Shown here: piece after piece, positions 545 to 24,144 of the stretch | Layout: the number at the start of each line of letters is the position of its first letter | Position numbering within the stretch: position 1 is the first letter of the stretch | Source of the DNA: Candidatus Poseidoniales archaeon | GTDB taxonomy: Archaea; Thermoplasmatota; Poseidoniia; Poseidoniales; Thalassarchaeaceae | Assembly: GCA_012964335.1 (NCBI GenBank) | Contig: DTUF01000024.1 | Span: 62,001-126,000, forward strand | Direction of reading: 5' to 3' | DNA length: 64,000 nucleotides | Notes under the pieces: model-generated | The model's database searches: none | Told to the model about the DNA's origin: nothing | The model's input: the letters and a program-made list of their open reading frames with translations, nothing else | Made by a program: the position numbers and the translations under genes

Positions 545-693
545 GCTCACAACTCATGTTTGCGGTTGTTATGGTCTCTTATGAATGGAATGATTAAACT
601 GCTGAACTACATCTATTCCTGTTCAGAATTTTCATAGTGAAAAAGTGTAATTTATACGGAAATATTGAGATTCAAGGTTTCAAAATGAGAAAA

Positions 694-838
694 GGCCCCA
701 CCACTGCTCAGCAGATGCCGAACAGAGGCGGGGCCAAATCAGCCTTACCGCAAACAGAGCTTACGCTCTGTAACGGAAGGTCGGGTGCTCAGGGGCCAAA
801 GCCCCCAAGCATCCCTGCATTCAGCGCCCGAAGGCGCT
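694..838 (-). terminator. Four tandem GC-rich hairpins directly downstream of the giant surface-protein gene
   Basis: On the minus strand: AGCGCC-TTCG-GGCGCT (823-838, C(UUCG)G tetraloop); GGGATGCT..GGGGGC..GCCCC..AGCACCC (783-815); CCTTCCG..ACAGAGC-GTAA-GCTCTGT..CGG.AAGG (743-780); GGCCCCGCC..GGTGGGGCC (694-735), followed by TTTTCTCATTTT. Confidence 0.75.
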
Positions 839-852
839 TCGTATTACTCACT

Positions 853-1431
853 TCAGCGGATGCTGGTTGGTGATGCAGTGTACTGCTTCAACATGTACGC
901 AGCGCCACCAGGCAATTCGTACTGAATGTCAATTAATGCCGAGTCGATGAGACCGTCATTGTCTGTCATTCTGATGAAGATTCTGTCACCAGGTCCGAAG
1001 GTTGTGATACAAGGTGAACCACCACGCTCACAGTGAGATATGTCATCCCAGAAGGTTACCATATTCTCGCTGTTACGAGGAGCGAATCCGTACACATTCT
1101 CTTCATCTCCACCACCAGGTGCAAGTGCAGTCTTGTACACTTGCTGTCCGCTAGCATTGGTCCACAATACAGAGACAGTCACTGCCTGTGTGGCTAAGTC
1201 TGTAGCTGCATATGATGTAGTAATTCTCCAGTGCCATTGGTCCTGTTGTAGTCCACTGATCTCTTGTACAGTAATTGATTCTGCTGAGAAGGTCAACCTT
1301 GGTGTGCCCTTGACACTGGTGTCTGCGAGTGAGCCTGCCCACACGTAGATTACACCAGCCAAGACGACTGTGATTGCAACAAGAAGGATGGTTGCGATAA
1401 CTGGGCTAACTGCACGGTCATCGTCAATCAT
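853..1431 (-). other. Archaeal type IV pilin (class III signal) domain, in frame at the 3' end of the giant ORF; possible independent translation from internal ATG at 1431
   Basis: MIDDDRAVSPVIATILLVAITVVLAGVIYVWAGSLADTSVKG..., matching the archaeal pilin N-terminal domain; GAGGAGG at 1437-1443 (minus) 5 nt before the ATG. Confidence 0.75.
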
Positions 1432-4400
1432 TGATTCCTCCTCGAAATCTTCCTCGTCTTCTTCCGCTCGAGAGCGGCTGAGTAGAGCACCAACGAATAC
1501 GCCGACTAAGCCGACTGCCATCAATGTTGGAGCGAACGAAGCAACAGCCTGTGCTGCCTTGGTCTCCACAATGAGTGGTAACTCGCTGTTGGTTCCTGAA
1601 GCAGTCATGTTATTGTCTGCCCAGTTCTTCTCTTCTAGAGCTGGCCTCTCGTACTTCGAGTTGTCAGTGTATTGACCAGTGAATGGATTCACTGTCATTA
1701 TGTCTACGAACACACGAACATCCTCAGATGTCTTGTTCATTCGGACGTAATTTCCAACCTCAACTGATCCACCGTAGTCAGGTAGTGATAATGCACCGTT
1801 TCCTGGACCATTGCTTCCAAGTCTTACACTGCTCTGGTATGTACCATCACAGCCTGCACAATCAGTGTCAACGATAAAGAATGACACTTGCAAATCGTAG
1901 AGATACTTGTATGTTCCATCTGAGTTGATTGGAGCATCTCCATCCATGTGCTGAAGGTTAACTGACACAGGTACCATAGTCTCGCGCAGAACACCGTCAA
2001 TTCCCTTGAAGTCAAATGGATCAGGGGACAGACGTACTTCGTTGAAGTTGTAGTCTGGTCGCAATTCCACTAGGTTGTGGACATTGATGAGTATCTGATG
2101 TTCGCTGCTGGTCTGCGAGTAACAGTTAGTAGTTGCGTCACCATCAGTTGCAAGAACGTTACATGCATCTGACTGTACGTAATCGTACTGTGCTGGTATT
2201 ACATCCTCAGGAGAATCCCAAAGAATCAAGTTCATCAAACAGTAGTCACCAGATCTTGGTGCCTTCTGGTGAATTCCATCATCTGGTATTCCATCACCAT
2301 CTGCATCCTGTAGCATATCCCACTCGCTGCTAGTTGCATCTGTGGTAGCATCAGGAATCAAATCGATTTCCATTGTGTGTGCTGCGTTGTCAATTGTTAC
2401 TGAGAAATAGTTAGTGTATTGACACTTGTCAGTGTAGTACTGAGAGTTATCGATTGTCCAATATAGTTGCTCATTGGTGTTATCGTTATCGCTCATCATG
2501 TCGGTCAAATCAATTGTTAGTAGGTCAGAATCTTCTGTGTCCTCATCTACAGACCACCACCAAGAATCGCCCTCATTATTTGGAGCATTGGCAGTTGAAC
2601 GGATTGTATCTGCTGTACCATCTTGGGCTAGAGTCTGGATGACTGAGCCGTTATTTACATCCCATGGGATAATACGAGTATTATCGTTAGTTGGTTGTAC
2701 TGTAAATGGTACGCTGATTGTTGCCGCAGCATCATTGATTGATGCACCGTCTGAAAGATCCAATACGATGTTACAGGTTCCACCATCTTCATTTGCCTCA
2801 TTGAGGTCAATTTCTAGAGTGGTACCGCCGCTAATGCTTACAGTGAATGGTGTACAATCTATTGGGTCAGTAACTGCAGTCCATGTGTAGGATTGAGGTG
2901 CTTGCTCAGTGTTGTTGTCAGCATTCCTGTCTTGCTCATTAGCTAGACCGTCACCGATTCCCAAATCTTGAACAAATCCTTCACCAGATGCGCCTCCCAA
3001 GAACTTGGTTAGCAAATCCCAGCCTCGCTCTTCACCGGTCACTGGATGTGGCCTCTGAGGTTCGTCGTAGTAGTTGTAGACCGCATTACCGTTAGCATCA
3101 ATGCCTTCAGTAAATACTGGTAGACCTGCTGAGTGTCGTGGGTTGTTGATTACTGGAGCGTCATTGACGTTCTCTACACCAACAAGCATTGACTGACTGC
3201 TGTACAAGCCGTGTCCATCTTTGACAACCAGGTATAGTCTCTGGTTACCAAACTCATTCGCATCTGGAGTGATGGTCATTGTATGACCTGTCAAATCGTA
3301 TGCGTATGGTGATGTTGCATTGCTTGGGTTTGTAGCATCGTTAGTTACAGTCCATGTCAATGTACTCGATGGTTGCTGATAATCTGCAGCCTTATCGGTC
3401 AAAGTCACGGTCTGTGAACCTGAATCTTCATCGTATGATACATCGACCAAGTCAGAAATGACTGGCTTTGCACGTAGGATGTCAATAGTGATATCCTGAT
3501 TCTGATCCATTGCTAGTGAACTATGTGTTCCCCAGTCCCAATAGATGTTATCTGCATCTCTTACCTTAACAGTCACATCATATGCGCGAGGTGTTGTTGC
3601 GCCGGTTGCTGTGAATGTTCGGTGGATTAGCAAGTAATCGTCTAGAGTACCATCAGCCAAATCGCCACCAGCCAATTGCAGTGTACCGAAGTCACCGAAT
3701 GTCTGAGCAGCACCGCTTGTCTGGTTCCATAGCTGTGGTGGATAAACACCAAGCACGTGACCAGAGTTTTCGTTCTGGATGATTGCTAGAGTCTTGATTC
3801 GTCCTGTTGGGCTTCCAATACAGTCCCATGGGATTGCGAACTCAGAGATACCACTCCATGTTGGAGTGACTCCTGGGTAACCAAATCCAGGTGCTGCTTG
3901 CATACCAGTACATGCTGCTGTAACATCGACCCAGTTGCCACCAGGCATAACCTTGCGGATACCCCAGTTTGCACGGTCTTCTGCCCATAGCATGAAGTCT
4001 GCCTCGAATGGCAGATTGTGACTGACATACCAGTTGTCACCAACGTTTGAACCACCTTGCTGGGTATCAAGATACCACATACCGTCTGTGACCAAGAAGG
4101 TCACTCCAGTCAGCATGATGTACAGATTTGAGTTATCCCAAGTCATGTATCCCATTGCTTGGCTAGTCGGGTCAGGGTTGACCGCAACTGGACCAGGCAT
4201 TGCATCGTCTGCAATGTTATAGCCTCCAAGTGGATGGCTTACGAACCAGTCAGTAACTGCCGCTGCACCACCTGCACCTTCTCCAACGGAGATGATGTTA
4301 GAGCGCCACGACGGGCTGACATATTCTGAACGACCAAGGTCGGTTGACTTAATCATCAATCCAACGTTGCTTGCTGCTCCACCCATGTGTGTAACAGTTA

Positions 4401-7400
4401 GGTCAAGGAGGTTACCCTCGTGAATGACCGCACTAGTTCCAATGGTCAACATACTCTGGTTGAGTGTGTTACCAACACTGGTAATGGTTGAGTAAGCTCC
4501 AGCATTAATCTGGGTCATACCTGCACCGTGCATGGATCTCCATGGACCATTTGTTGTTGTGGTCATGTTCTCAATCGTACCTGATGCGCCACTTAGTGTC
4601 TTCAGAGTTGTAGTTGCAGTTGAGTCACCGCCATTCCATCGGAAATCATCGTGACCATCTACTAGCATACCAATGCCACCAGTTGTATCCATGTTTGCAA
4701 CATCTAGTGTGTGGCGACCAGTGTCAGATGTAACATCCAAACCGATACCAAATCCACTATCTGCAGAGACACTTAGACCGTCAACAGTTAGGTCAACATT
4801 GGTCAAGTCAAAGCCGTTGTCACCAGTGACAACTGCTCCACCCTCTACATTTAGAGAACCACCGTCTTGTCGGTATGCTAGGCTAAATCCGCCGATGGAT
4901 GTACCATCAAGGGAGACGTCTTCGCTTCCGTCAAGGATGTCAATTCCGTATGTCTGTAAGTTGCTACCACCTGAACTTGCGGCTACATTGATTACACCAC
5001 TCATGAAACTGTGGATAGTGCAATGATACTCGTAAGTACCTGCAGCTGTGAACGTGTGGGCAAATGTTGAGCCCAAGTTCATTGGTCCACTGTTCCAAAT
5101 TCCAGATGTGTTACTGGTTGTTGAATGCTGGTAGTTGTTGGGGTCGCTGTTGTATTGAGTCAATACCCATCGTACAGTATCACCTGTGCTGATGTTCTTG
5201 ATTGTTGGATTATATTGCGACGCCTCAATGTTCACAGAGTGAATCTGTGATGCTGAACCACCTGCGCTGGCGAATGTGCTGCCAACATCAGATACATCAC
5301 AACCATCTGACAATAGAGCGTTAGATGTTGTGCTGACATAGTTGCCTGACATTGTGACTTCTGCAAGTCCACAGTTCTCTAGGTAGATACCTGTTGCAGT
5401 TGGTGAAACACGTCCACCAGATGCACTAATTGTGTTTCTTGAAATATCCACATCAAATCCAGAGCGGACACCGTAAACGTTGATTCCGCCATCTGCATCA
5501 ATCAGTGTGTTATCTGCAATTGAACCATGACCGTTTAGGACATAAATACCAGAGTGGGCTGAGTTTGCATCACCCTTGATTGTGTTGTTGTTGATATTCC
5601 ACTGCTTAGCATTACGCATATAGATAGGTTCGTCAGTAGTCAATAGAGTGTTTCCACGAATCTCTACACTGTTCAGACGATTGTCTTGTGCGTAGATACC
5701 GTATTGTACTCTCTTAGAGCCTGTTACTGTGTTGTTATCAATAAGCAAGTCATCTGCATCAGATTGTAGGTAAATCCAGATTGGTAGGTATGTGCTGTCA
5801 TACATTGTGTTGTTACTCCAGTGTGCACCATCTGTTCCAGATCCACCATAGGCAGGGCTGGTTGCATAGTAGTTAATGTAAATCATGATTCCAACAGTAC
5901 AGTCGTACATTGTGTTGTTATCAACAGTCCAGTCGCCAGGGTCAGTTCCAGCTGACTGGATACATATCTCTTCAGGATAGACCGATTGTACATCAGTTAA
6001 CTGAGAGTATGACACTAACACGCTGTTAGTAACATGCATCACTGGGTCACGGTTGTAATAACCAGCACCACTTCCAACTGCACCAACGTTAATCAGCGTT
6101 GAATCATTCACATGGAAATTACCGTAACTGTATCCACCGTAATATCCTAGGTTGAAGAACGCCGTATCCTTTGGACTAATTGCTGCCCACGTCGTATCAT
6201 CTAAGTAGATATCTCCGTCATAGTTTCTAACGTACAAATCAGACCATTCATCGTTGTAGAATCCACTGACAATAACTGTTGAACCATTGAATGATGCTCC
6301 AGTCGTACCAGTGTATGCCCAAGGCGAGTCTATCAGAATCGCTTTGTTCTTCATGTCTGTTGGCATCGCACCCCAGTAACCATATTCGGTAATCGTACCT
6401 CCGGCACCATCACCGTTCAATTTGGTTCTAGAACTTGCAGTTGCAATATAGTTAGCACCAGCACAGGATGCCAGTACACTGTAATAAGTTGATTCCCAAC
6501 TATAACATATACGAGCATCAAACCGATCCGTCAGTGCAACCGTATCAGAGTTACCTGGTCCATCGACCAAACTCACCCCTTTGACTGCATATCTAAAGTC
6601 TGCAACACGTGTACTCATTGAGCCAGTGGTGTCGTACTGTACTTTAGCAACAGTCATTATTTGGAATCCTGCTAAATTCACCACTGTCCATCCCGAAGAA
6701 TCAACATAATTGGTGTGGAACAACATATCGTTCACCGTTCCCGCGCTGTCAGTTTCACCTGAGCCCACGCGTCTACTATTGGCATCAATCATGCTCACGC
6801 CTGTTCCAGCGACACCATTACCATCTGCTTCAATAGTCACGTCCAGCAACCTTGCTCTTTGCAAGAGTCCTGAACCCGTCGCTACCACCGTGGCTAGATC
6901 AATATCTCCTTCAATCCAAGTAACCAAACCTGAAGTCGCAACATCGACTGTATTACTACCAGTAGTACAATCAGTACAGGTAAGTTCTCCTGAACCGTCG
7001 TGATTGATAGCAATATTATTGCTTGTCAATGCTAGGTTATTGAAGGCCCAGTCCTTGGTACTAGTTGGTAGAACATTGATTGCAGCTCCTGCAGCATTGG
7101 TGATTGTACCACTTAGGGCCATCTTAATTCCAGATCCTAGGACTATTCCGTCTTGGGATTGGTTGTCTAGATTGGTGTTAGTCAACTCTAATGAGCCAAT
7201 GGCTGCAGCTGTCATGCGAACACCATAGCGACCGTTGTTGACTGTTAAGCCATCCAATTCAACAGATGAACTGCCTGTAACCAATACACCCTCATCTACT
7301 GGGTCATTGACTACAACAGTGTCAATAACACCAGCAGCATAGTTTCCAGAAATGTGGAGACCTGTATCTGATCCATCAATCACACCATTTGCTAGTGAAG

Positions 7401-10400
7401 CAGTTCCAAATTCTCTACCCCAGTTTGCATCCATCAATTCATTGATAGTATTGCCACCACGGAATACGAAGTCATATCGGTCACCGTAGTAATCAGCGTA
7501 GTTGTGTAGAATATCGATGTATGCTGATACATCAGTTACACTTGGACTACTGACATCAACAATTGGCCAGTGCATTTGCCAGCCGTTTGGTGTAGGTGTC
7601 TGGTAACGGTATGCATATGAAAGACATATGTTGTAGTTACCCCAAAGACCGTTGTAGCCCTCTGGAGGCTTGAAGATACCCTGTCCGCCATGGTATTGGG
7701 TGTAGTAGTAACCCCAGTACTCGTACGGGTAGTAGTTCTGTGAACCTGTCAGACCCTCTGCCTTTTCAATTGTGAAACCGAAGTCGCTTGGGTATGAGTT
7801 AGCACCGTAGTATTGACCTGAACTAGTGTAAGGTCCGTAGTTGTTCATGTAGTAGTAGTAACCATACTGATACGAACCACCTGGGCTGTATTGGTAACCG
7901 TAGAGGTTACAGTCGTAACGAGCCCATCCATCGTTTCTTGATGGGTGGTCTGGATTGTTCCTGTCCCCAAGGTTTGAAGTAATACCTGAATGGTAATATC
8001 CAGTCATTAATTTACCTGCAGCATCTACAGTGAAATTCTCAATCTCATCTCCAATACCGTTTGCATCGTTATCAATTCCATCATTGAGTCCAATACGCAT
8101 TCGGTCGTGGATTGCGAAGTAACGGCTTGTGTAATAGTTGTACGTTGGGTGAACGTTTCCGCCCATGTAGACGTTATTGAAACCGAATTGGATGTAATTG
8201 TAATTACTTGCCAATCCAGTCAAATCAATGTCGTAAGTTTCCCAACCACGTGCGTGACCTGATAGTAGAGTTGAGCGGTAGATACTTGGTAGTGTCATTC
8301 CGCCATCAATTTCTACTCCAACTGTGTTATCGTTGAGGGTGAAGCCATCAATTGCTGGGGCTGCATCCTTGATCATTACGCCAGTAGCTGCTCCAGATAC
8401 ACCGATGTTCTGAATGACGCTGGTTCCGGAATCTTCTATCCAAACACCAACACCAGTCTGCTGTGCATTGTATATACTCGCATCGTTAACTAACAGTGTT
8501 CCACCGCTAACCTTGATGGTTGCCATAGACGCAGAGGTCGTTTGACTACCGTAAACTATGGCACCATTCTTCAACTCAAGAGTTCCATCACCGACATTCA
8601 GCGCCCCTCCAGTATTGGAGTTCTGATGCATATCACGGATAGCCCCATTATCTACAACGAAAGTACCGCCGTCTTGGATTTCCATTTCCCAGCCGTAAGC
8701 GCTGGTCACTGCCTTCATGTTACCAACTTCGCCACCACCTTCGGAGAGCAGAATTTCGCCTCCGTTCTGGATAGTGATTGTTGGGTTGTTGTTAGCTGTG
8801 CGGTTAATCATTATCTTTGTTCCATTCAAGTGCAACTTGCACCCGTCAATAACTAAGTCAGTTGATAGAGTAATGATTTGCATTGTGTATAGATAGTAGC
8901 CGTTGGTCATAGATGTGTTTGAATTCAAGAATCCACAATTCTTAGTTGCGCCATTCCAATCTTGTGGGAACGCTTCTAACTTAATGTAGACTTGATCACC
9001 TGGACTTAGCGGCATGGAACAATCCATGCTGTTAATCATACATGATCCTGTATACCATGCGTCTGCTGGTCCTGTCTCGTTCTGACCTGCACCGCCAGCA
9101 ATGGCGATTCGATGGTCTGTGTACGAGGCAGTAACAGTGGTTGATCCACTAACCTTCTCTAACTTATCTTGAAGCAACCAAACAGTTGCGTTTCCAGTAC
9201 TATCGGTTTTAGCTGCGCCAACTGATGTGATATCAGAAACTACACAAGCAGCACCTGGGCATGTACCCGAAGTGCTTACTGTAGTTGTAGTAACTGAATG
9301 GTCAGCAACAAATACTGGCACGAAGTTCATTACACGGTATGCTGCAACTTGAGCAGTACCACCGACATACAATGCACCTGAGGATGATGAAACATCAACC
9401 CAACAGTCAGACATTCCTGTCCAACCAGCTGCATTAGCACAATCGTTGCCTCTCCATGAGACTCCGATTAATCTAACATCACCGTTGGTGCTTGCTTGCG
9501 CCACATACGCGCCCATAGATGTTTGACCGGTTATTGCCACATCTGCGACTGTAACCTTTGCATTACGAGCATAAACGATGTTTCCGTTAGTGGAACTACC
9601 GTCCATTGAACCACCTGCTACGGTCAATGTGCTTGAAGCACTGCTTGAAGTACACGAAGCAGTTGCCCATACACCGTTGGTTGAATCACCAAGGTCAGCG
9701 TCATCAGCTCGGACATTCCAACCGCATCCAGCGATTGAAATACCATCAGCGGCTAGATTTGTGAGCATCACTAAGTCACCGGTTGCTGCAGTTCCATCCA
9801 TGCGGAGATATCCATCTAAGTCTACATTATCCATTGAACCTGGAGTAGTCCTTGACATCACCATATTACCAGTGCTGGTAATTCCGCTAGCGGACCAACC
9901 TGAGTCACCAAGAACAGTACCTGCGGTACCTCCTGGAGCCAACGAGATTGAACCACCACTAATATCGGTTAATGACATACTATCTGTAGCATATGATACG
10001 ATAGCATTTGCATATCCTGCTGCATTAATATTGTTAGCAAACAAACTTGTTCCAGAAGTTGCTAGTGAGGTTTGGCTGATACCAGACCCACCTACTTGTG
10101 TGCTTGATAGCCCACTTGTCGACATACTAACGTTGCTAGCATGTATCGAAGTAGCATCACCCATGACAGCGTTGTGTGCTGAATCTGTAATAGTTAGATT
10201 CTCTAGGTAAATATTGCTTCCGTCACCGGTCTTGATGGCACCTTCAGTAGATGAACTACCCATGTTACAGTTCGTTGCCGAACCTTCTAACCATGTTAAT
10301 CCGGAGTCATCAGGCAAGTCGATACAAGAGTTAGTTGCATTGGTTATTGAAACTCCAGAGAGATCAAAACCAGTACCTGTTCCTGAACCGTGCTTGATTG

Positions 10401-13400
10401 CAGTACCAACATCGGTAAATGTGACTGTGTCAAAGGTAAAGTTACCTACATTTCCGTTGTGGTGAGGTGCACTTCCGTGACGGCTACCTGCACTGATTGC
10501 AACATCTAAGTTGCTGAAGTCAGTGTTGTTGAACATATGCCTGTCATCAGTGTCTGAACAACCGCTTGTGAATGCAATACCCTTGCCGTTTCCGTTACCA
10601 AGGTTGGTAAATGATACTGGGTGAGTTGCATTTCCTTGAGTTGTCAAGCGAGAACATGTCCCTGCCATATCTATTCCTTTGCCGGGTGCGAATTGAACTT
10701 CAACACCAGCATCAATCACTAGATTTGCTGTTACACGTAGGTAATCACCACTTGGCACAACACGAATCGGACTCATTTCTATATCCCATATTGTGTCTTC
10801 AGTAATGTCCGCGTAAACATCCATACCAGCACCATCGAATGGCACTGTCTTTGTACGGATACTGCATTCGTTGGTTCCGCTGTTGTAGCAGTAGTATGCA
10901 CCATAGTAACCAAACCAAGGTGTAAGTTGTGCGTTGCGGATGTATGAAGCAGAGCTCGGCATTTCAGGCCAATAGCCACCCCAACCATAGTACGCCATCT
11001 GCATCGGTGTTGTTGATGTAGATGTGCTGAAAGCAGCTCCGCCGTGGCGGATTACGTGCATCTTGTGACTACTGTTACCACTGTAAGTAGTACCGAAGTA
11101 ATCAATGTCAAATCCTGCTGGGATGTCAATAACATCTCCACACTGATTTCGGTAGTTATACCAATATCGCGTGCAGTAGTATGTGTATGGGTTTCCATTG
11201 GATGTACCGGTGAAGACTTCATCGTAGTTGTACAATTCAGTCATTCCTACTGGCATCCTCTCGTTTGCATGGTTGTTACCATCTGTTGCAATTCGGTAGT
11301 TGTAATCATATGGGTTTGCACCAGCAAGATAACCAGGGCCTCTCTCTCTTAGAGATGCACCAATGGCTGTTGAACCACCCTTTTGATAGCCGATATTCTC
11401 GTAATCATAGTAAGCAGATGAGCCGGTATCGTAATGATACTCGATTTCATTGGTCACATCGTACATCTTAATTTGATAAGAGCACTTGTATTGTTGACCA
11501 AATCCGCAATTCATGTCATGCCATTCAACAGTAAATACCTTGGTTGGCGTTCCAATGTGATAACTCACAGCAGTGGCGTTGTTCCAGTTGTTGTTGTTGT
11601 CCTGTGCGTGAATACTGTATTCAACAGTGTTCCCACGGTCTGTACCTGGAATGTTAGCCGACCAATCACAAGGAATCAATTCGCACTGAGCGCGAGTCTT
11701 GCCTGCTTGCTGAGACATTGCTCGAGTAATCCAATTACCCCAAGACTGGCTAGTATCATTGTACACACGGTATTCAAGATGTGGTCCCTCAAGGACCCCA
11801 TTCCCATCTACACCAGTTGAAACATTCACGCCTGTTGGAGGGTCTCCAGCATCTGTTATTTTTACTGTCACTGTCCTGTCATCCTGACTGTGAGTGTCCA
11901 TCAATCCTGTGTGATCAAAGGTTGGTGGATAGATATCAGGCATTGGCCTAACTGGGCTTACCTTTTGCATGATTTGACTGTTTGCAGACCAACGTCCATC
12001 GTAACCTGGAGCCATCCAACCGTTGAATTGTCGGTCGTAATTGTAGGTACTGTATGAGTAGAGGCAGTAAGGATTACTGCTGCTGCTGCTCAAGAAGTAC
12101 AGAGGATGGTTGTTACTGTTAACACAGAAATGGTTTCTTGTGGTCCTACTTGATGTGTAAGATGCGTTTACACTCAATGTACCGAACTTCATGGTGATGT
12201 CACCAGGAATTGGTACTGCTGAGTAACAGTCATCGCAATTGCGACCACCGCCTTGAGTACCTACTGGTGCGCTTGCAACAGGCTGATCGATTCCAGTTTC
12301 ATCATCTAATCCTACCATTGTGAAAGCACCAAACGCTGTATTGTACCACCAAATAGTGGACATACCTGGGCCGTTTTGACCATTCAGTGTTAATCCCTGA
12401 TCTTTTGGATTTGTAACTACACAGGTTGCAGACTGAGCACAATTTGCGTAAGAGTATCCACTAATAGTTGGGCTGTATCTCATCTGGTACGCTGCATTAA
12501 TGTTGAAGCACTGGTTATTACCAGAGCCACACGAGGAAGTATCATACTCCCAAATGTATTCTTGTGTATCTTCGTAGTATGTAAGTTGCTCATCCATGTA
12601 TCGATAAACCGAATAGTATCGGAAATTGGTTAATGCGTCAATCTTTAGTTGCCACTTGTTGTTACCAGTTCCATCACTATTGAAAACATCTGCATCCTCA
12701 TCTGGTTGCACGAAGTAGTTGTAAGGAGAACTTGGAGCAGTTACACTGCTTGGGGTACCAGTTCCTCCTATGGGCAACGTCTTGAAGTTGGGATTACCGG
12801 TTGATCCGGGAATTGAACCTTTCAAGTCCTGGAATGCCCAGAAATACTCAACATATTCGCCTTCCTGAACCGCAGGTATTACGGCTCGGAAATTACACCA
12901 GTATCCAGCAACACATGTGCCCAAAGTGGTCGCATGTACGTTGGTCCAACTACCGTTGTCAACACTGTAACTTAGTGATGGACCACCACTAGATGTAGTG
13001 TCAACACCAGTTACGTCCTTGAGTTGGAGCCAGAAGGTTCTCTGCTCCGCACGGTGAGTTATTAGGTCAGTGTAAGGCACAAATGTGTCCTCTGGAGGTG
13101 CGGTATCAGAACCGCCACTGTAGTCCAGATGCAAATGTGGGTACTTGGCAGCACTTGTGCAACCATAGTAACTGTAGTAGCCAGAACCACACCAATACCA
13201 GAACGGTGCGTTAGCGGTATTTCTCAGACCAAGTCCAAGAATGTTTCCGCTTGAACCTGCTCCATTACCGTCAACTGCGTCTTGTACGTCATCGATTCCA
13301 TTTTGATTCATACCAATGGTTCGTACGTTACCGCCATTCCAATAGTAACCTGGGTCACTTAATGACGTAGACGAAGACGACGCTGCGCTGTTCCTAATAT

Positions 13401-14778
13401 AGCGATTCAAATTTCTACCACTACTGTATAGATAGCTACTCGGGTCAATCACGTTGCTCGTTTGACTAGAGCCAGACTTCAGTACAGCAACTTCGAAATT
13501 ACGTGCCCCGCTTTGGTACCTGCCAACGCTAGATTTGAAATCTACACTGTTAACAGTCGCACCAGTTGGTAACGCACTATTGAAGTCAAAGCGGTACCAA
13601 GCGTATCGGTAGTACCATGTGTAACTACCCGATGTACAGGTGTTAGCGGCAGACCCTGAACCTCTGCAAGTGTAAAGCAATGAAGAGCTAGAGAATGCGT
13701 ATTCATATGTGGATGTGTACCAACCCCATCGAGTGATGCGGTAGTAGTACGCATATCCAGTACGCTGAACACCCTTGTCCATAGTTGGATCAATAGCAAT
13801 TGGGAACGAGCGGTTATCACTGTCCATCAGCCATGTGTTCTCAACAACTGTTGTCAGAGTAACTTCCTCTCCCCGAACCGTAATCAGGTACTCGCCGATG
13901 TGAGGGCCTTCATCTGTAGGCTCAATACTTTCAACGAGAGGTGGCGGGATTTTTACCAATTCCTCACCTGTTGCCAAATTGCGGATACTGAGGGATTGGT
14001 TAGTCTTCACCAATTCTCCATCTGCAATAGGCGACTCACCTAGGAAGATAGCATATCCGGGTGGCAGAATCATTGTTTCTGCAATACCGAAGTATCCTGA
14101 CTCCTTCTGGTGGTCAAGTAGCATTGGTGCTTCTCGGATGACAAGGTTCTGCTTCAACTGGGTTGAAGTTACCTTGTAATCAAGCGAAATGCCGGTCATC
14201 ATAGGATACCTAATCACATTTCCACCAATATCAATAGGCTCACTGCTAGGCTTTGCCATGTAAGGTTCTGGAGATAGCGTGTTGCCATCTAGAACCACTA
14301 CTTGTGGCATAATACCATAGCGAATGGTTTGCCCATTAACTACCATTTGGACACCCTGACGAGCATCGTTTCCGAAGTAGGTTTCGTATGTGTTCTGTGT
14401 TACACTCCATCCTCCTTCATTGGACTCGATTGTCAAGTCTATCTCTTCCCAGGCACCATTGTCCAAGTAATGGACTGGCACTGGAGAGACAATAACTTCG
14501 AAATCACCATTTTCCTTCAAGAAGGTCTTGGCGGTTTCGGTACGGGAACCGATTAGCTCGGCACCTGCGTCATATCCAAATTCATCATTATCTGCCGGAT
14601 TCATTGCTTCATCCGGTAGAGTCAGCAGGTCATCAATAGACTCTGCCCCATCGTTTTCAGAAGTCTGTAATTTCTCCGTTACCGGCGAAACCGCAGCGCT
14701 CCAACTCATTCCAATCATCAGGAGAGTTAGCAAAAGCCAACTGCCCCCAAAGGTCACTTTATTTTTGTTTGTCACCAT
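853..14778 (-). CDS. Giant (4641 aa) secreted, membrane-anchored beta-helix surface protein with amicyanin-like, CBM9/DOMON-like and cadherin-like modules and a C-terminal type IV pilin domain
   Basis: Single ORF; N-terminal signal peptide (LLLTLLMIGMSWSAAVS); many right-handed beta-helix style repeats; cupredoxin motif HCTIHSFM; TM (FAPTLMAVGLVGVFVGALLSRSR), acidic tail, then DDRAVSPVIATILLVAITVVLAGVIYVWAG. Confidence 0.9.
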   Translation of the reverse strand: MVTNKNKVTFGGSWLLLTLLMIGMSWSAAVSPVTEKLQTSENDGAESIDDLLTLPDEAMNPADNDEFGYDAGAELIGSRTETAKTFLKENGDFEVIVSPVPVHYLDNGAWEEIDLTIESNEGGWSVTQNTYETYFGNDARQGVQMVVNGQTIRYGIMPQVVVLDGNTLSPEPYMAKPSSEPIDIGGNVIRYPMMTGISLDYKVTSTQLKQNLVIREAPMLLDHQKESGYFGIAETMILPPGYAIFLGESPIADGELVKTNQSLSIRNLATGEELVKIPPPLVESIEPTDEGPHIGEYLITVRGEEVTLTTVVENTWLMDSDNRSFPIAIDPTMDKGVQRTGYAYYYRITRWGWYTSTYEYAFSSSSLLYTCRGSGSAANTCTSGSYTWYYRYAWYRFDFNSALPTGATVNSVDFKSSVGRYQSGARNFEVAVLKSGSSQTSNVIDPSSYLYSSGRNLNRYIRNSAASSSSTSLSDPGYYWNGGNVRTIGMNQNGIDDVQDAVDGNGAGSSGNILGLGLRNTANAPFWYWCGSGYYSYYGCTSAAKYPHLHLDYSGGSDTAPPEDTFVPYTDLITHRAEQRTFWLQLKDVTGVDTTSSGGPSLSYSVDNGSWTNVHATTLGTCVAGYWCNFRAVIPAVQEGEYVEYFWAFQDLKGSIPGSTGNPNFKTLPIGGTGTPSSVTAPSSPYNYFVQPDEDADVFNSDGTGNNKWQLKIDALTNFRYYSVYRYMDEQLTYYEDTQEYIWEYDTSSCGSGNNQCFNINAAYQMRYSPTISGYSYANCAQSATCVVTNPKDQGLTLNGQNGPGMSTIWWYNTAFGAFTMVGLDDETGIDQPVASAPVGTQGGGRNCDDCYSAVPIPGDITMKFGTLSVNASYTSSRTTRNHFCVNSNNHPLYFLSSSSSNPYCLYSYSTYNYDRQFNGWMAPGYDGRWSANSQIMQKVSPVRPMPDIYPPTFDHTGLMDTHSQDDRTVTVKITDAGDPPTGVNVSTGVDGNGVLEGPHLEYRVYNDTSQSWGNWITRAMSQQAGKTRAQCELIPCDWSANIPGTDRGNTVEYSIHAQDNNNNWNNATAVSYHIGTPTKVFTVEWHDMNCGFGQQYKCSYQIKMYDVTNEIEYHYDTGSSAYYDYENIGYQKGGSTAIGASLRERGPGYLAGANPYDYNYRIATDGNNHANERMPVGMTELYNYDEVFTGTSNGNPYTYYCTRYWYNYRNQCGDVIDIPAGFDIDYFGTTYSGNSSHKMHVIRHGGAAFSTSTSTTPMQMAYYGWGGYWPEMPSSASYIRNAQLTPWFGYYGAYYCYNSGTNECSIRTKTVPFDGAGMDVYADITEDTIWDIEMSPIRVVPSGDYLRVTANLVIDAGVEVQFAPGKGIDMAGTCSRLTTQGNATHPVSFTNLGNGNGKGIAFTSGCSDTDDRHMFNNTDFSNLDVAISAGSRHGSAPHHNGNVGNFTFDTVTFTDVGTAIKHGSGTGTGFDLSGVSITNATNSCIDLPDDSGLTWLEGSATNCNMGSSSTEGAIKTGDGSNIYLENLTITDSAHNAVMGDATSIHASNVSMSTSGLSSTQVGGSGISQTSLATSGTSLFANNINAAGYANAIVSYATDSMSLTDISGGSISLAPGGTAGTVLGDSGWSASGITSTGNMVMSRTTPGSMDNVDLDGYLRMDGTAATGDLVMLTNLAADGISIAGCGWNVRADDADLGDSTNGVWATASCTSSSASSTLTVAGGSMDGSSTNGNIVYARNAKVTVADVAITGQTSMGAYVAQASTNGDVRLIGVSWRGNDCANAAGWTGMSDCWVDVSSSSGALYVGGTAQVAAYRVMNFVPVFVADHSVTTTTVSTSGTCPGAACVVSDITSVGAAKTDSTGNATVWLLQDKLEKVSGSTTVTASYTDHRIAIAGGAGQNETGPADAWYTGSCMINSMDCSMPLSPGDQVYIKLEAFPQDWNGATKNCGFLNSNTSMTNGYYLYTMQIITLSTDLVIDGCKLHLNGTKIMINRTANNNPTITIQNGGEILLSEGGGEVGNMKAVTSAYGWEMEIQDGGTFVVDNGAIRDMHQNSNTGGALNVGDGTLELKNGAIVYGSQTTSASMATIKVSGGTLLVNDASIYNAQQTGVGVWIEDSGTSVIQNIGVSGAATGVMIKDAAPAIDGFTLNDNTVGVEIDGGMTLPSIYRSTLLSGHARGWETYDIDLTGLASNYNYIQFGFNNVYMGGNVHPTYNYYTSRYFAIHDRMRIGLNDGIDNDANGIGDEIENFTVDAAGKLMTGYYHSGITSNLGDRNNPDHPSRNDGWARYDCNLYGYQYSPGGSYQYGYYYYMNNYGPYTSSGQYYGANSYPSDFGFTIEKAEGLTGSQNYYPYEYWGYYYTQYHGGQGIFKPPEGYNGLWGNYNICLSYAYRYQTPTPNGWQMHWPIVDVSSPSVTDVSAYIDILHNYADYYGDRYDFVFRGGNTINELMDANWGREFGTASLANGVIDGSDTGLHISGNYAAGVIDTVVVNDPVDEGVLVTGSSSVELDGLTVNNGRYGVRMTAAAIGSLELTNTNLDNQSQDGIVLGSGIKMALSGTITNAAGAAINVLPTSTKDWAFNNLALTSNNIAINHDGSGELTCTDCTTGSNTVDVATSGLVTWIEGDIDLATVVATGSGLLQRARLLDVTIEADGNGVAGTGVSMIDANSRRVGSGETDSAGTVNDMLFHTNYVDSSGWTVVNLAGFQIMTVAKVQYDTTGSMSTRVADFRYAVKGVSLVDGPGNSDTVALTDRFDARICYSWESTYYSVLASCAGANYIATASSRTKLNGDGAGGTITEYGYWGAMPTDMKNKAILIDSPWAYTGTTGASFNGSTVIVSGFYNDEWSDLYVRNYDGDIYLDDTTWAAISPKDTAFFNLGYYGGYSYGNFHVNDSTLINVGAVGSGAGYYNRDPVMHVTNSVLVSYSQLTDVQSVYPEEICIQSAGTDPGDWTVDNNTMYDCTVGIMIYINYYATSPAYGGSGTDGAHWSNNTMYDSTYLPIWIYLQSDADDLLIDNNTVTGSKRVQYGIYAQDNRLNSVEIRGNTLLTTDEPIYMRNAKQWNINNNTIKGDANSAHSGIYVLNGHGSIADNTLIDADGGINVYGVRSGFDVDISRNTISASGGRVSPTATGIYLENCGLAEVTMSGNYVSTTSNALLSDGCDVSDVGSTFASAGGSASQIHSVNIEASQYNPTIKNISTGDTVRWVLTQYNSDPNNYQHSTTSNTSGIWNSGPMNLGSTFAHTFTAAGTYEYHCTIHSFMSGVINVAASSGGSNLQTYGIDILDGSEDVSLDGTSIGGFSLAYRQDGGSLNVEGGAVVTGDNGFDLTNVDLTVDGLSVSADSGFGIGLDVTSDTGRHTLDVANMDTTGGIGMLVDGHDDFRWNGGDSTATTTLKTLSGASGTIENMTTTTNGPWRSMHGAGMTQINAGAYSTITSVGNTLNQSMLTIGTSAVIHEGNLLDLTVTHMGGAASNVGLMIKSTDLGRSEYVSPSWRSNIISVGEGAGGAAAVTDWFVSHPLGGYNIADDAMPGPVAVNPDPTSQAMGYMTWDNSNLYIMLTGVTFLVTDGMWYLDTQQGGSNVGDNWYVSHNLPFEADFMLWAEDRANWGIRKVMPGGNWVDVTAACTGMQAAPGFGYPGVTPTWSGISEFAIPWDCIGSPTGRIKTLAIIQNENSGHVLGVYPPQLWNQTSGAAQTFGDFGTLQLAGGDLADGTLDDYLLIHRTFTATGATTPRAYDVTVKVRDADNIYWDWGTHSSLAMDQNQDITIDILRAKPVISDLVDVSYDEDSGSQTVTLTDKAADYQQPSSTLTWTVTNDATNPSNATSPYAYDLTGHTMTITPDANEFGNQRLYLVVKDGHGLYSSQSMLVGVENVNDAPVINNPRHSAGLPVFTEGIDANGNAVYNYYDEPQRPHPVTGEERGWDLLTKFLGGASGEGFVQDLGIGDGLANEQDRNADNNTEQAPQSYTWTAVTDPIDCTPFTVSISGGTTLEIDLNEANEDGGTCNIVLDLSDGASINDAAATISVPFTVQPTNDNTRIIPWDVNNGSVIQTLAQDGTADTIRSTANAPNNEGDSWWWSVDEDTEDSDLLTIDLTDMMSDNDNTNEQLYWTIDNSQYYTDKCQYTNYFSVTIDNAAHTMEIDLIPDATTDATSSEWDMLQDADGDGIPDDGIHQKAPRSGDYCLMNLILWDSPEDVIPAQYDYVQSDACNVLATDGDATTNCYSQTSSEHQILINVHNLVELRPDYNFNEVRLSPDPFDFKGIDGVLRETMVPVSVNLQHMDGDAPINSDGTYKYLYDLQVSFFIVDTDCAGCDGTYQSSVRLGSNGPGNGALSLPDYGGSVEVGNYVRMNKTSEDVRVFVDIMTVNPFTGQYTDNSKYERPALEEKNWADNNMTASGTNSELPLIVETKAAQAVASFAPTLMAVGLVGVFVGALLSRSRAEEDEEDFEEESMIDDDRAVSPVIATILLVAITVVLAGVIYVWAGSLADTSVKGTPRLTFSAESITVQEISGLQQDQWHWRITTSYAATDLATQAVTVSVLWTNASGQQVYKTALAPGGGDEENVYGFAPRNSENMVTFWDDISHCERGGSPCITTFGPGDRIFIRMTDNDGLIDSALIDIQYELPGGAAYMLKQYTASPTSIR
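3655..4330 (-). other. CBM9/DOMON-like domain inside the giant protein, resembling the N-terminal domain of the GH57 protein in this window
   Basis: LPFEADFMLWAEDRANWGIR...GNWVDVT...SGISEFAIPWDCIGSPTGRIKTLAIIQNE versus GH57 LPFAADFAFVIEDSSYFSLQ...SAWVAADQTDV...NTEISIPWNNIGSPTSLAVIVWSQ. Confidence 0.65.
4979..5244 (-). other. Cupredoxin (amicyanin-like) domain inside the giant protein
   Basis: IHSVNIEASQYNPTIKNISTGDTVRWVLTQ...NYQHSTTS...FTAAGTYEYHCTIHSFMSGVINVAA; ligand pattern H...C-x2-H-x2-M as in amicyanin (HCTPHPFM). Confidence 0.8.
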
Positions 14779-15252: not shown

Positions 15253-18200
15253 TCAGTAGTCAAACTCGTCGGAATCGCCTTCTTCGCCACCGCGAGTTAG
15301 GATGAATGCTCCTGCGATAACTGCCACTAGGACAAGTATGCCGATTGCAATCCAAGCTTGGGTTGGGATTTCTCCGTCTCCACCTTCAACACCGATGGTG
15401 TCGTCAACATTCACGCCTGGTCCAGTGTCATCGGTAAATCTCAAACCTGCACTGGACTCAGCTGTCTCCATATTACCAACTGAATCAACTGCTGCTACTG
15501 AGTAGTAGAATACACCAGAACCTGAGTGCCTGTTCATTGTAACATCCATGCTAGAATCAGCAGTGGTGTGACAGTTGCCTGCAGTAATTAGGCTAGAAAC
15601 CTCAAGCGAGGTGTGTTGTGCTGGTGACCAGCAAATTAGCCAGTGATTGACATCAGACGAATCAGCGGAAGTCCATGTGAAGTGAATGCTTGATTCACCA
15701 GAACTTGTAGCATCAAGGTCAGTAGCTCCTGCTGTTGGATCAACTTGGCCATCTGCAGTTGCACTTCCTGAATCAACAGGTGTACCATACAGAGAGTTAC
15801 CATCAGTTCCAACCTCACCGTTCTCTACACGCACGAGGAACTCGTATGTTGTACCATGTGTCCCAGTAATTGTGTGAGTTGTTGTAGTCAAGTCAAAGGT
15901 ACTGCGTGTACCGTCAAGGGCTGCTCCACCACCATTGACATACAAAACACCGTAATCGTTTGAACTAGTTAATTGTGAGTTGTTAATTGCCCATGAAAGG
16001 TCAATTACACCAGCGGAACCAAGCGTTGCTGTTAAGGAATCAATACCAATCTGTGGTGGTTGTCCAATAGTAGCGGATGCGAATACTGCGTATGTAGATG
16101 ATGAGCGAGATGGTAGAGAACCATCATTGCTCCATGACAGACTAATTGTGTCTGCATCAACCTGAGCTTGTGTAGTACCTGGCATCTCAACCCATCCACC
16201 GATACCCTGATACCAAAGGGAATGGCCAACTGACGGGTCAGCGTCTAAAGTCACAGTCAAGTCTTCACTGTTCACATCTGATGGTGCAAGTACTGCACTC
16301 ACATCAATGTCAAATTCGCAGACTGAATCCCAACCTGGGCTACCACTTAGCGTCTGGTCTGTTACAGCATCAGCATCTGAGAATTGTGCAGTGAACTGCT
16401 GAGTTCCAGCATACAGAATAGCGTAATCTACACTCCAGCAATCTCCAGAAACAACATTGGAATAGTTATTCCAAACACTGAAAGTGATCTGTGCCGATGC
16501 ATCGGCACCCCAGTAATCGTATACTGTAACAATCATTGTTGGGGAACCAAACCACATGGGATTCATGTCAACTGTACAATCAGGACTTCCGCCCATAATA
16601 CTGCCTGTCATTGGATCTTCCATACCACTACAAATATCCAACTGTGGGTCCTGTTCAGAACCAGACACCATTGACCATGTGTACCCAAATGGTTCTTGGT
16701 TACCGTCTAGGTCTAAGTCAGGCTGGCTAAGATGTTCTGCACGAGCAGAGAAAGTGATGCGGGTGCCAGTAACAATGTCACCCTCAATTTCATCCATCGT
16801 CAAGTAAGCCGATGGACCCATGTTAAGAACTTCAAAGTGACTAGTACGCATATCGTTGGCTGAGTTCATGTCGATCTTACAATCGGGGTTGGTACCTGTT
16901 CCGCAATCATTAGCGGGGTCGGTGTCAGTTAGCGTTGCGTCAAGTAAATCGATTGTCGCACTCACTGTAAACATGCCTGGGTTAATCATTATCTCGGCGC
17001 AAGCAGTTGCTTCAAGAGTAGCCGGGAACATTTCTCCCAAGTACTCGTGCGAGGTAGATCCTTCTGGATCATCTGGGTTGTCACAATCGTTTGCCATAAT
17101 AGGTGAACCCATGACATCATCACCATTAGAATCCTTTACATTGAACATAACTGCCCAATCATAATCGATTGTTCGGTCACTACCACTGTGAGCAACGGTT
17201 GCAAAAACCCGAGTCATTCCAGCATCCAATCGGCCGCTTTCTTGACGAGGGTTGCCTGCTTCAACATTGACAACTTGTGCATCGTGATAGGAGGTAAAGG
17301 TTGCAGTTAGCAACGCATCATTGTTTCCGTTTCTATCGTCAAGAGTACGGACGACCTCTTCCATAGTATCGGTTGGAGGGCCTGGTGGGTGAGTACCTGA
17401 TTGGTCGGGTGTTGATACAAATTCATACATAGTGTACTGAGTAAGAGACGACTGGACTGTGAATATTCCTACGCCATTTGCGTTAGCCGAATCTCCTTGG
17501 ATAGAACCTGCAAAGGTGTAATTTGTTGCTTGGAATTCAGCAACTTGGCGGGTTTCACCAATGTCACTTGCATTCATATGAGTTGGTGGTTCCATTGAAA
17601 GGTTGCTGAATACTTCAATGTCATTTGTTTGGCCAGCGCCAAACAAATCACCAAAGCTTACTGTCCATGTACATGTACTAGCACCTGGTCCATTGGGACA
17701 GTCTTCGTACGAACCATCACCATCTGAATCAAACATTGATACAGCGTTAGTGTTCCCCATACCATCTTCCATGTATGCTTGGAATAATCCACTAAAAGTT
17801 ACGTCCATCTCAACGTCACGAGGATCCCAATCAGCACTACCATCGACAAATGCTGTCATGGTAAATAGATGTGGACCCGCGCCAGACATTGGGTCATCCC
17901 CATTATCCCAAGTAAGTTCTGTTGAGATATCATACCAATCCACTACATCAACATCATAATCTAGAATGTTATTGTTCAAATTGGTGTCTTGATCAAGAGA
18001 ATCAACCTCGATATGAATTGTATACATACCTGGTGCTGGTGGTGTCCAAACTAAGTCTGCCCCAGTTGAATCCCGAACAATATAATGGCCGTTAGCCAAA
18101 TAATCGCCAGCAGTAAAAGTTTGGATACCACAAGAAATTGTGTCATCACAAACCGCAGCGTCTTCGGCATCAACAATCAACAAAGAGGAGTCACTCTTAG

Positions 18201-18489
18201 GAGCAACAGTTACAGTCACTGTCAATTCTGATATATCGTTGTCACCATCGTTCTTGATGACGAGGTCAAATAATACAGCCTCGCCAGCGTCAACGGAATT
18301 TCTCACGTTGCCGGTCATATCAGTCGTTGATTCACGAGGTGAATTCGCACCCATCAACCAAACCTCATAATCGGCTCGGCCATTGGTGTCATCCACCTGT
18401 TCTCTCTCATTCATTTCAATTGGGCTTAGGCTTGCTACGATGCTCATTAACATCAGCAGTGCTAAAACCAAACTTGTTGCTCTCTTCAT
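15253..18489 (-). CDS. Secreted, C-terminally TM-anchored surface protein with CARDB-like and Fn3-like domains
   Basis: Signal peptide MKRATSLVLALLMLMSIVASLSP; VNEDAGEAVLFDLVIKNDGDNDISELTVTV-type CARDB text; C-terminal IPTQAWIAIGILVLVAVIAGAFILTRGG TM and acidic tail. Confidence 0.85.
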   Translation of the reverse strand: MKRATSLVLALLMLMSIVASLSPIEMNEREQVDDTNGRADYEVWLMGANSPRESTTDMTGNVRNSVDAGEAVLFDLVIKNDGDNDISELTVTVTVAPKSDSSLLIVDAEDAAVCDDTISCGIQTFTAGDYLANGHYIVRDSTGADLVWTPPAPGMYTIHIEVDSLDQDTNLNNNILDYDVDVVDWYDISTELTWDNGDDPMSGAGPHLFTMTAFVDGSADWDPRDVEMDVTFSGLFQAYMEDGMGNTNAVSMFDSDGDGSYEDCPNGPGASTCTWTVSFGDLFGAGQTNDIEVFSNLSMEPPTHMNASDIGETRQVAEFQATNYTFAGSIQGDSANANGVGIFTVQSSLTQYTMYEFVSTPDQSGTHPPGPPTDTMEEVVRTLDDRNGNNDALLTATFTSYHDAQVVNVEAGNPRQESGRLDAGMTRVFATVAHSGSDRTIDYDWAVMFNVKDSNGDDVMGSPIMANDCDNPDDPEGSTSHEYLGEMFPATLEATACAEIMINPGMFTVSATIDLLDATLTDTDPANDCGTGTNPDCKIDMNSANDMRTSHFEVLNMGPSAYLTMDEIEGDIVTGTRITFSARAEHLSQPDLDLDGNQEPFGYTWSMVSGSEQDPQLDICSGMEDPMTGSIMGGSPDCTVDMNPMWFGSPTMIVTVYDYWGADASAQITFSVWNNYSNVVSGDCWSVDYAILYAGTQQFTAQFSDADAVTDQTLSGSPGWDSVCEFDIDVSAVLAPSDVNSEDLTVTLDADPSVGHSLWYQGIGGWVEMPGTTQAQVDADTISLSWSNDGSLPSRSSSTYAVFASATIGQPPQIGIDSLTATLGSAGVIDLSWAINNSQLTSSNDYGVLYVNGGGAALDGTRSTFDLTTTTHTITGTHGTTYEFLVRVENGEVGTDGNSLYGTPVDSGSATADGQVDPTAGATDLDATSSGESSIHFTWTSADSSDVNHWLICWSPAQHTSLEVSSLITAGNCHTTADSSMDVTMNRHSGSGVFYYSVAAVDSVGNMETAESSAGLRFTDDTGPGVNVDDTIGVEGGDGEIPTQAWIAIGILVLVAVIAGAFILTRGGEEGDSDEFDY

Positions 18490-18615
18490 GTCACAGTCCT
18501 CCCACTAAGGGATTGCCCCACCTATTCAATCCATATTTATACTATGCGCGGGTCTTTGTTAGGTAATTCAGTTGTAAACGCACAATCGTATTGTTTTTGG
18601 TGCATAATTTTTGTA

Positions 18616-21600
18616 TCATTCAATGTCACGTAGGGCCTCAGCAGGGTGGATAGATGCGGCCCTTCTGACAGGCCAAGCAGTAGCCAAAATTGTAAGCAAA
18701 TAAGCACCTAAAATAATCAGCGAAATCTGCCCCCAAGGCAGTACGAATTCAGCGCCTTCATCTTTTAGGAATTTGACGTACAACTGGTAGTGGAAACCAA
18801 CCCCCACTGCAGCCCCATTCAAAATGCCCAGTAGACTCACCCAAGTCAACTCTGTTAGATACCCAGCAATAACCATACTTCGTTGGAATCCAAGAGCTCT
18901 GAGTATCCCCGTTTGATGAGCCCTCTCAGACACGTTGCGAATAGTAATTACTCCTAGTCCGGCAATTCCGACTATTAGCCCTAGAGCAAGGAATGCTTGG
19001 AGAAGACTGAACATTGCAAAAATGATTGATTGTATCTCTTTGAATTGAACTTCTATTGCAAATACAATTGCACCTTCTTCTACTAATTCAAATTGCAATA
19101 CTTTTGCTACTTCTTCTTGTTCTTCAAGAGTCACGCCTGGTGGAAGTGAGAACCAAATTGAGGAAGGGGTTGCCTCAAAACGCTCAACAGCAATTGGTTT
19201 TGCTACACTGACCCCACTAGCAAACCAACCACTTTCCTCATTCATGACTGCACCAATAAAGAAAGTGGCGTTAACGGCTGGATTGAAAGGGTCCTGGACA
19301 ATTATTGCATCACCAATGTTTAATCCCATACCTTCGTAAATCACACCTCGATCACCTTGATAAGACTCAACAGCCAAAGTGAAATCAATCACAACAAGTG
19401 TATCATTTTCAAGGATAGCCTGCCAAACATCTTCAGCATTATCCCCCAGACTTGGTTCCCAAGAATGTAACGGTAAGCCGTTTAAACTCGTGAAATTTGA
19501 GTCAAAACCACGTATACTTGTATACGCGGATTTGTTTTCCAAATCTGTTTCACCTTTCTGATAAACCTGAACAGTAGCGGTATGCATCGTTGCAATGGCA
19601 TCAAAATCAGAGGATTGTAGTTCACCTAAATCCCATTCACTAGAATTCTCACCGAGGTCAAGGTCTCCGAATGCAACTATTTCCCATTCACCCCGCGCAT
19701 CCTCTCCAATATCTCCAAGCCAATTACCAACAAGTGCGGAATAGCCAGACAGAACTACTACTGCAAAAACCACCAAACTGAACATCCCCATGGTCATAGC
19801 AGTCCTGAAAGGTGTTGCCAAAGGATAGGCAAGTGCAGTGGGTAATACCGATGAAAGGCGACCTGAGATGCTTGAGCCTGCCTTTGCTAAAGAGCGGGCT
19901 ATCATTGGTGCTAAACTTGTCAGTAACAACACTCCTGCTCCAACCAAGAATAAACCCAAAATGATGAATGATGCATCGCCTAATTCCCAGTCAGCCCTTA
20001 TTGGGTCTGTCCAAATTCCCCAACCGAACATCAACAATCCTAGAATTGTCATGGTCAAGCGAGGGGTGAGAATCGTGCGCGAAATTCTTGTCCCTCTAAA
20101 TGAGATTGATTCTGGCAATAATTTCGAAAATGTGAAGAAAAGAGGTGGTACTAATCCGAAAAGGAATAGGAAGCCTGCCGTTAACCACCACGCATATCGA
20201 CTACCGGTTTCAGGGTCTCCTATCATGAAAGCAAGCACTGCAGAAACTATTGCAGAACCCAACATGAAAAGTGAAATGAGAATGGTCCACCAAGGCAGGG
20301 TACCTTTCATTCTAGTTGGAATATCACGCATTGCGGCTACAACATTGAGTCTCGAAATGTAAATTGAAGTCGCCATTAGCGTCATGAAAGTAACTAGGAA
20401 ACCAATTGAGAATCCACTCAAAAGGCTGTGCCATTCCCAAGAAAAGAGAATTCCTCGCTGGAAAGTTTCAGAGAGAACACGGTCAAGACTTAACATCAAT
20501 AATTTGGCTACCCCAATTCCTATGACTGCGCCGACAGCACTTGAAACCAAGCCGATAAGTGTGCCTTCAATTACGAACATCCCTCGCAATTCCCCACGGT
20601 GCATACCCAATGCTCTCAGCATACCCATCTCCGATTTACGTTCATCAGCGAGCATGACAAAGAGATTCATCACAAGCAATACACCAGCAAAAATTACGAA
20701 CGAACCAAAAATAAGGAAGAGGGCTGAAAAATTCGCCCCTGAATCCGCAGTAGCGTCCCTAATCTCTGATTTTAGAGCGACTGTTTTGATACCAACTGAC
20801 TCCGCTGTGGATATCTCATCTGCCCAGGCGGTAATATTAGCTTCTAATCTAGAAAGATTATCATCCGATACCAAGGCAAAACCGCTAACCATCACCATAC
20901 TGCGGACTTCTTCGTCTCGGTTCAGTAGTTGTTGAGCATCGGATATATTGACTACTGCGATTGAAATGTCATCAAGCCCTGGCTGACCAGGTGGTGCGGG
21001 TAATTCAGGGACTGTGAAGGTGTAATTGAAATCCATCGGCTCAAATATTCCTCTAGCAGCCGCCATCAATCCAACAACTTGAAGAGATTTGGGCGGTGAC
21101 AATGCTAATCCATTCGCTGACCAAGTTGAAAGATATAGATCACCAGGTTCGGGATTAGGAATCCCCACACCCCCTGTCAAGGCAATTGCAACCAAAGGCA
21201 AGTTTGAGATTCCATCTACCGATATCTGATATGGCAATCTGCCAGATACATTGTCTCCATCCGATATCAGAACTCCATAAGGTGATGTGGCGATTGTTCT
21301 CTCTCCATCACTCCATGCAGTGCGATTGTCTGAGCCTTGTGCCGGTTGAGTATCTGCTAGTGAAAACCCAGTGCCATTCCAGCGGTAAAGACCTTCTTCT
21401 TCAACCACCACAGAAGTGGAAGAAACGGATAGGATTTCACCCGTTGGTAAACCAAGGTCATGAGCCGAAACAGGAGTGCCTTCAAACCGCGCTGAAGTCA
21501 GTTGCAAATCTTGACCATATACATCCCAAGCAAGTCCTCCGGAAGTTGTGATTGAACGGCTTGAAGGCGGGTCAACATTCCAATTACAAGAATTAAATTC

Positions 21601-24090: not shown

Positions 24091-24144
24091 GTAGTATCGG
24101 GTGGGTTGCACACCTATAATACAGGCAGGACCACAGATGAAAAC

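Follow-up and report, generated by a model that had tools for sequence, protein, structure and literature searches.

The cupredoxin domain family is already known, and several of its described members resemble the domain considered here. Amicyanin (of Paracoccus; represented by TIGR02657) shares with it the cupredoxin fold and a C-x2-H-x2-M copper loop, and both amicyanin and plastocyanin have an Asn after the first His. The purple cupredoxin of Nitrosopumilus maritimus (PDB entry 5fc9), also from a marine archaeon, is its best PDB sequence match and one of its top fold matches, but it is a separate small protein (a 95-residue PDB chain) whose aligned loop, CSFHPWR, has no Met. Halocyanin, plastocyanin, and the free cupredoxins of Marine Group II belong to the same PF00127 family and have a similar ligand set; these are short proteins of about 170 to 220 aa by frame length, whereas the present domain lies inside what is probably a beta-helix structure. 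Plant phytocyanins and early nodulin-like proteins are likewise cupredoxins, with four copper ligands, a conserved disulfide, and subgroups that differ in the copper-ligand residues (PMC4499708). In these plant-specific proteins the disulfide is constant, whereas in the family described below cysteine pairs occur only in copies without the ligands. Little is known, to our knowledge, of how the abundant, uncultured archaea of Marine Group II come into contact with surfaces and particles. Their adhesion genes are reported to separate families and genera (PMC6461757), and high transcription of their halocyanin and plastocyanin genes has been reported for some samples (PMC9723583).

In the window (the whole stretch of DNA that was analyzed, 64,000 nucleotides from a Marine Group II archaeon of the order Poseidoniales, family Thalassarchaeaceae), we examined a giant gene for which a preliminary description had proposed an amicyanin-like copper domain embedded mid-way in an extracellular beta-helix protein. 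The peptide stands on the minus strand where it had been placed (Table 1), and it is a true cupredoxin with a predicted beta-sandwich. Scored as an isolated stretch, it matched PF00127 at 29 bits (E value, 1.5e-6; cutoff, 21.2 bits) and, in another scan, at 27.4 bits; phmmer searches of the PDB returned the Nitrosopumilus cupredoxin 5fc9 and amicyanins with E values of 4e-10 to 1e-9 (the best being 4e-10 and 8e-10). An AlphaFold2 model of aa 3060 to 3400, built from an alignment of 22 orthologues (pLDDT, 88.1; pTM, 0.78), passes from coils into the domain (aa 3179 to 3266) and back into coils. All 50 of the PDB matches listed by Foldseek for this model are cupredoxins or cupredoxin-domain proteins, for example, plastocyanin 1bxu (TMt, 0.84), 5fc9 (0.76), and amicyanin 3ply (0.71; rmsd, 1.5 Å). 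The cupredoxin fold proposed in the preliminary description is supported. A chance motif is ruled out by the PF00127 score, the PDB sequence matches, and the Foldseek matches together. On both sides of the domain, the model has regular coils of short strands that would fit a parallel beta-helix, yet no Pfam beta-helix family was found there (E value ≤ 0.001) and none is among the 50 listed Foldseek matches. The domain and its edges would form a cassette inserted between two beta-helix coils.

Table 1. Features of the giant surface protein gene and its cupredoxin cassette, in window coordinates
Feature	Residues (aa)	Window position	Strand	Basis
ORF of giant surface protein	4,641 in all	853-14778	-	ORF and translation; orthologues
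Signal-peptide-like N-terminal segment (putative)	1-33	14680-14778	-	Hydrophobic stretch at aa 15-33
Cassette, approximate span, absent from genera g15 to g18 and g20	3172-3280	4939-5265	-	Empty-site alignment
Cupredoxin domain	3179-3267	4978-5244	-	PF00127, PDB phmmer, AlphaFold2 and Foldseek
Predicted Cu ligand His	3218	5125-5127	-	Invariant, 48/48 copies
Predicted Cu ligand Cys	3253	5020-5022	-	35/48 copies; otherwise Ser or Asp
Predicted Cu ligand His	3256	5011-5013	-	35/35 copies with Cys; altered in 11/12 readable copies without Cys
Predicted Cu ligand Met	3259	5002-5004	-	35/35 copies with Cys
C-terminal transmembrane segment	about 4409-4432	1483-1554	-	Hydropathy
Archaeal type IV pilin N-terminal domain, in-frame fusion	4453-4501	1276-1422	-	PF07790, TIGR02537

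The four type 1 ligands, His-Cys-His-Met, are present as had been claimed, together with the short amicyanin-type loop. This loop, HCTIHSFM in the window, is the sole C-x2-H-x2-M motif in the 4,641 residues. We infer that, in this genome, the cassette very probably holds a single copper ion at a type 1 site whose loop is of amicyanin length. The domain differs from amicyanin in being embedded in a giant protein and in having Ser instead of Asn after the first His; Ser, Thr, or Asp stands at this position in most copies, and the spectroscopy could therefore be unusual. The label "amicyanin-like" holds for the short loop and the fold and fails for true amicyanin: TIGR02657, the amicyanin equivalog, is the best-scoring NCBIfam cupredoxin model for the domain, but its 42 bits fall below the cutoff of 110.2, and membership is rejected on that score. 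The halocyanin model TIGR03102 is also below its cutoff (27.6 versus 93.8 bits). A search for the methylamine dehydrogenase light chain (PF02975), run without a positive control, did not find it in the same genome, which is 85.5% complete.

The giant protein is probably secreted, in agreement with the extracellular position that had been claimed for it, and its Sec-type, signal-peptide-like N terminus, C-terminal transmembrane segment, and beta-helix coils suggest an extracellular stalk. The transmembrane segment is followed by a pilin N terminus in frame at the C-terminal end (window 1276 to 1554, minus strand: AVSPVIATILLVAITVVL). This pilin segment scores above the cutoffs of both PF07790 (37.8 bits; cutoff, 25.2) and TIGR02537 (44.7 bits; cutoff, 20), and the same fusion is present in three orthologues; some orthologues have no nearby Met from which a separate pilin could start. 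Cleavage by a prepilin peptidase would divide the protein into a stalk and a pilin; a profile search of the same 85.5%-complete genome did not find PF01478, the prepilin peptidase family. About 1,150 residues separate the cupredoxin from the C-terminal anchor, and a motif scan of all 4,641 residues found no CXXCH heme motif. Elsewhere in the window, a 1,532-aa protein contains a stretch (36816 to 37277, plus strand) with 35% identity to about aa 3534 to 3695 of the giant protein, and matches of this kind recur across related genomes. The region adjoining the giant gene (15253 to 24111, minus strand) encodes a protein of 1,078 aa that matches DUF11 and fn3 weakly, as well as a permease of the MacB/FtsX type together with an ABC ATPase.

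Searching 319 genomes of the order Poseidoniales with aa 2600 to 3800 as the query (E value ≤ 1e-30), we found relatives in 146 genomes from both families and 14 of the 22 genera, many of them in frames of 4,500 to 4,800 aa. Orthologues occur in named genomes of Candidatus Poseidoniales, including several Thalassarchaeaceae. Among the 71 relatives that were aligned, 48 carry the cassette, all at one identical site, in nine genera (g1, g2, g4, and g9 of family f1; g13, g14, g19, g21, and g22 of family f2). The other 23 sequences, from five genera of family f2 (g15 to g18 and g20, with about a quarter of the genomes of these genera read), have an empty site across which the coil is continuous (e.g., SSLQG-EGDSSTVGI). 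In a tree of the flanks, computed with the insert removed and left unrooted, the rows without the cassette all fall on the same side of a single branch (SH-aLRT, 100) and imply one change of state. Because the cassette occurs in both families, the simplest history is ancestral presence followed by one loss, with the polarity of this unrooted tree resting on a root between the two families; the ancestor of Poseidoniales probably had the cassette. An assembly artifact is ruled out by the presence of the same cassette at the same site in dozens of independent MAGs, and a viral origin was rejected after a scan of viral contigs gave no relative.

The copper site itself has a more varied history. 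All four ligands are complete in 35 of the 48 copies, including that of the window. The preliminary description had named ligands that vary among close homologues as a ground for refutation, and on this point the answer is mixed, with conservation in these 35 copies and loss in the remaining 13. The loop from Cys to Met spans seven residues in 30 of the 35 intact copies and is one or two residues longer in the other 5. Loss of Cys3253 affects all eight g9 copies, three copies of g4, and two of g13, always with His3218 kept, and at least four changes between the intact and lost states are required on the flank tree (one row with an unread base was left out). In each intact copy the ligand is the only cysteine in the domain. 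The eight g9 copies, by comparison, all have two domain cysteines, C3197 and C3268, and the three g4 variants also have two, C3215 and C3256, the latter at the position of the lost His; each pair is confined to its own group among the 48 copies. The two g13 copies without the site have no cysteine in the domain. An AlphaFold2 model of a g4 variant retains the cupredoxin fold at lower confidence (pLDDT, 82). Judged from sequence, the cysteine pairs suggest disulfides in place of copper, and the g4 variant may instead have a different metal site. A natural switch from metal to disulfide in at least two lineages, with the staple at two different places and with the domain and its position in the stalk kept, is a rather doubtful extension of this pattern; if it is true, the job of copper here would be at least partly structural or regulatory.

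Selection on the domain, estimated as dN/dS by simple counting, is purifying in intact and lost copies alike, with values of about 0.02 to 0.20 for intact pairs and about 0.06 to 0.24 for lost pairs, and with similar values in the flanks. Across the 48 copies, several Gly, Asp, Trp, Tyr, and Phe columns of the core show little or no variation. Within g4, the flank tree places the three variant genomes as successive branches below four copper-type genomes, and the copper-loop region and the flanks disagree in relatedness when G016, G023, and G024 are compared with G015 and G018 to G020. For aa 3206 to 3262, the two copper-type groups resemble each other (0.77) more than the nested one resembles the variants (0.62); in the flanks, the same comparisons give 0.68 to 0.70 and 0.83 to 0.88, respectively. 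Local exchange of the copper-loop region by recombination is the likely cause, and convergent change in the loop may be an alternative.

Cupredoxins are also fused to other predicted surface proteins in this and related genomes. These include an alpha-amylase (PF00128) that is predicted to be secreted, has a cupredoxin domain at its N terminus (PF00127, 38.7 bits), and is encoded by a genome of the same genus (L122, positions 678 to 3734), a thrombospondin-type-3 protein in the window's own genome (L123), and a 2,679-aa protein (L121). A 203-aa protein of the window's own genome (L124, C4, positions 250 to 861) has the C-terminal half of PF00127, with a CSPHPTM loop, before the N-terminal half and appears to be a cupredoxin that has undergone natural circular permutation; genome G107 has a relative of 201 aa.

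The explanation that we favor, with a probability of about 0.72, is that the domain is an ancestral cupredoxin cassette set between coils of an extracellular beta-helix stalk, predicted to bind copper in this genome and serving as a dispensable accessory module, any redox activity being local rather than a wire to the membrane. Selection would preserve the copper site as a whole in most lineages, while elsewhere the stalk would persist without copper or without the whole cassette. That the cupredoxin is dispensable and has decayed repeatedly speaks for an accessory role, which could consist of local redox chemistry, the holding of copper, or a recognition knob stabilized by copper or by a disulfide; if the site is redox active, its local partners would be small molecules or soluble components close to the cell surface. 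Against this explanation, 13 of the 48 copies lack the Cys, so that copper need not be what preserves the fold. A less probable but plausible interpretation is that the domain serves chiefly as a knob for structure or ligand recognition, stabilized by copper in some lineages and by a disulfide in others, with no redox role. In its favor, cysteine pairs appear in g9 and g4 only where Cys3253 is lost, a g4 variant is still predicted to fold, the lost copies evolve under the constraint given above, and phytocyanins combine a conserved disulfide with variable copper ligands (PMC4499708). Against the knob, none of the 35 copies with Cys has lost a ligand, which is seemingly more conservation than fold stability needs, and the two g13 copies without the site also lack a cysteine pair.

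Extracellular electron transfer, in which the copper centre would relay electrons between environment and cell, was the idea put forward in the preliminary description, and it has been weakened to the point that we regard it as unlikely. Marine Group II genomes do encode free cupredoxins, halocyanin and plastocyanin genes are reported to be strongly transcribed in some samples (PMC9723583), and a pilin segment is part of the giant protein. However, a single copper site without a heme motif, at such a distance from the transmembrane anchor, makes long-range transfer to the membrane unlikely without partners, and the cassette is absent from a whole clade and has repeatedly lost its ligands with the fold kept. 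Capture or buffering of copper at the cell surface is similarly improbable: each molecule offers one predicted extracellular site, and the genome encodes other cupredoxin-domain proteins, but one ion per 4,641 residues would be a costly store. That the domain is a decaying fossil without present function is already disfavored and very improbable, since purifying selection acts on intact and lost copies and the core columns are preserved throughout, despite the clade without the cassette and the loss or exchange of ligands elsewhere.

In the literature searched, coverage of which was partial, we found no report of the giant protein. What is new is the insertion of a cupredoxin in mid-helix in a pilin-tailed giant, its presence or absence by clade, and copper-site loss accompanied by newly gained cysteine pairs. 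The natural versions that are intact, without copper, or without the cassette lend themselves readily to comparative tests of the function of a surface cupredoxin, and they caution against reading electron transfer into a copper motif of a surface protein.
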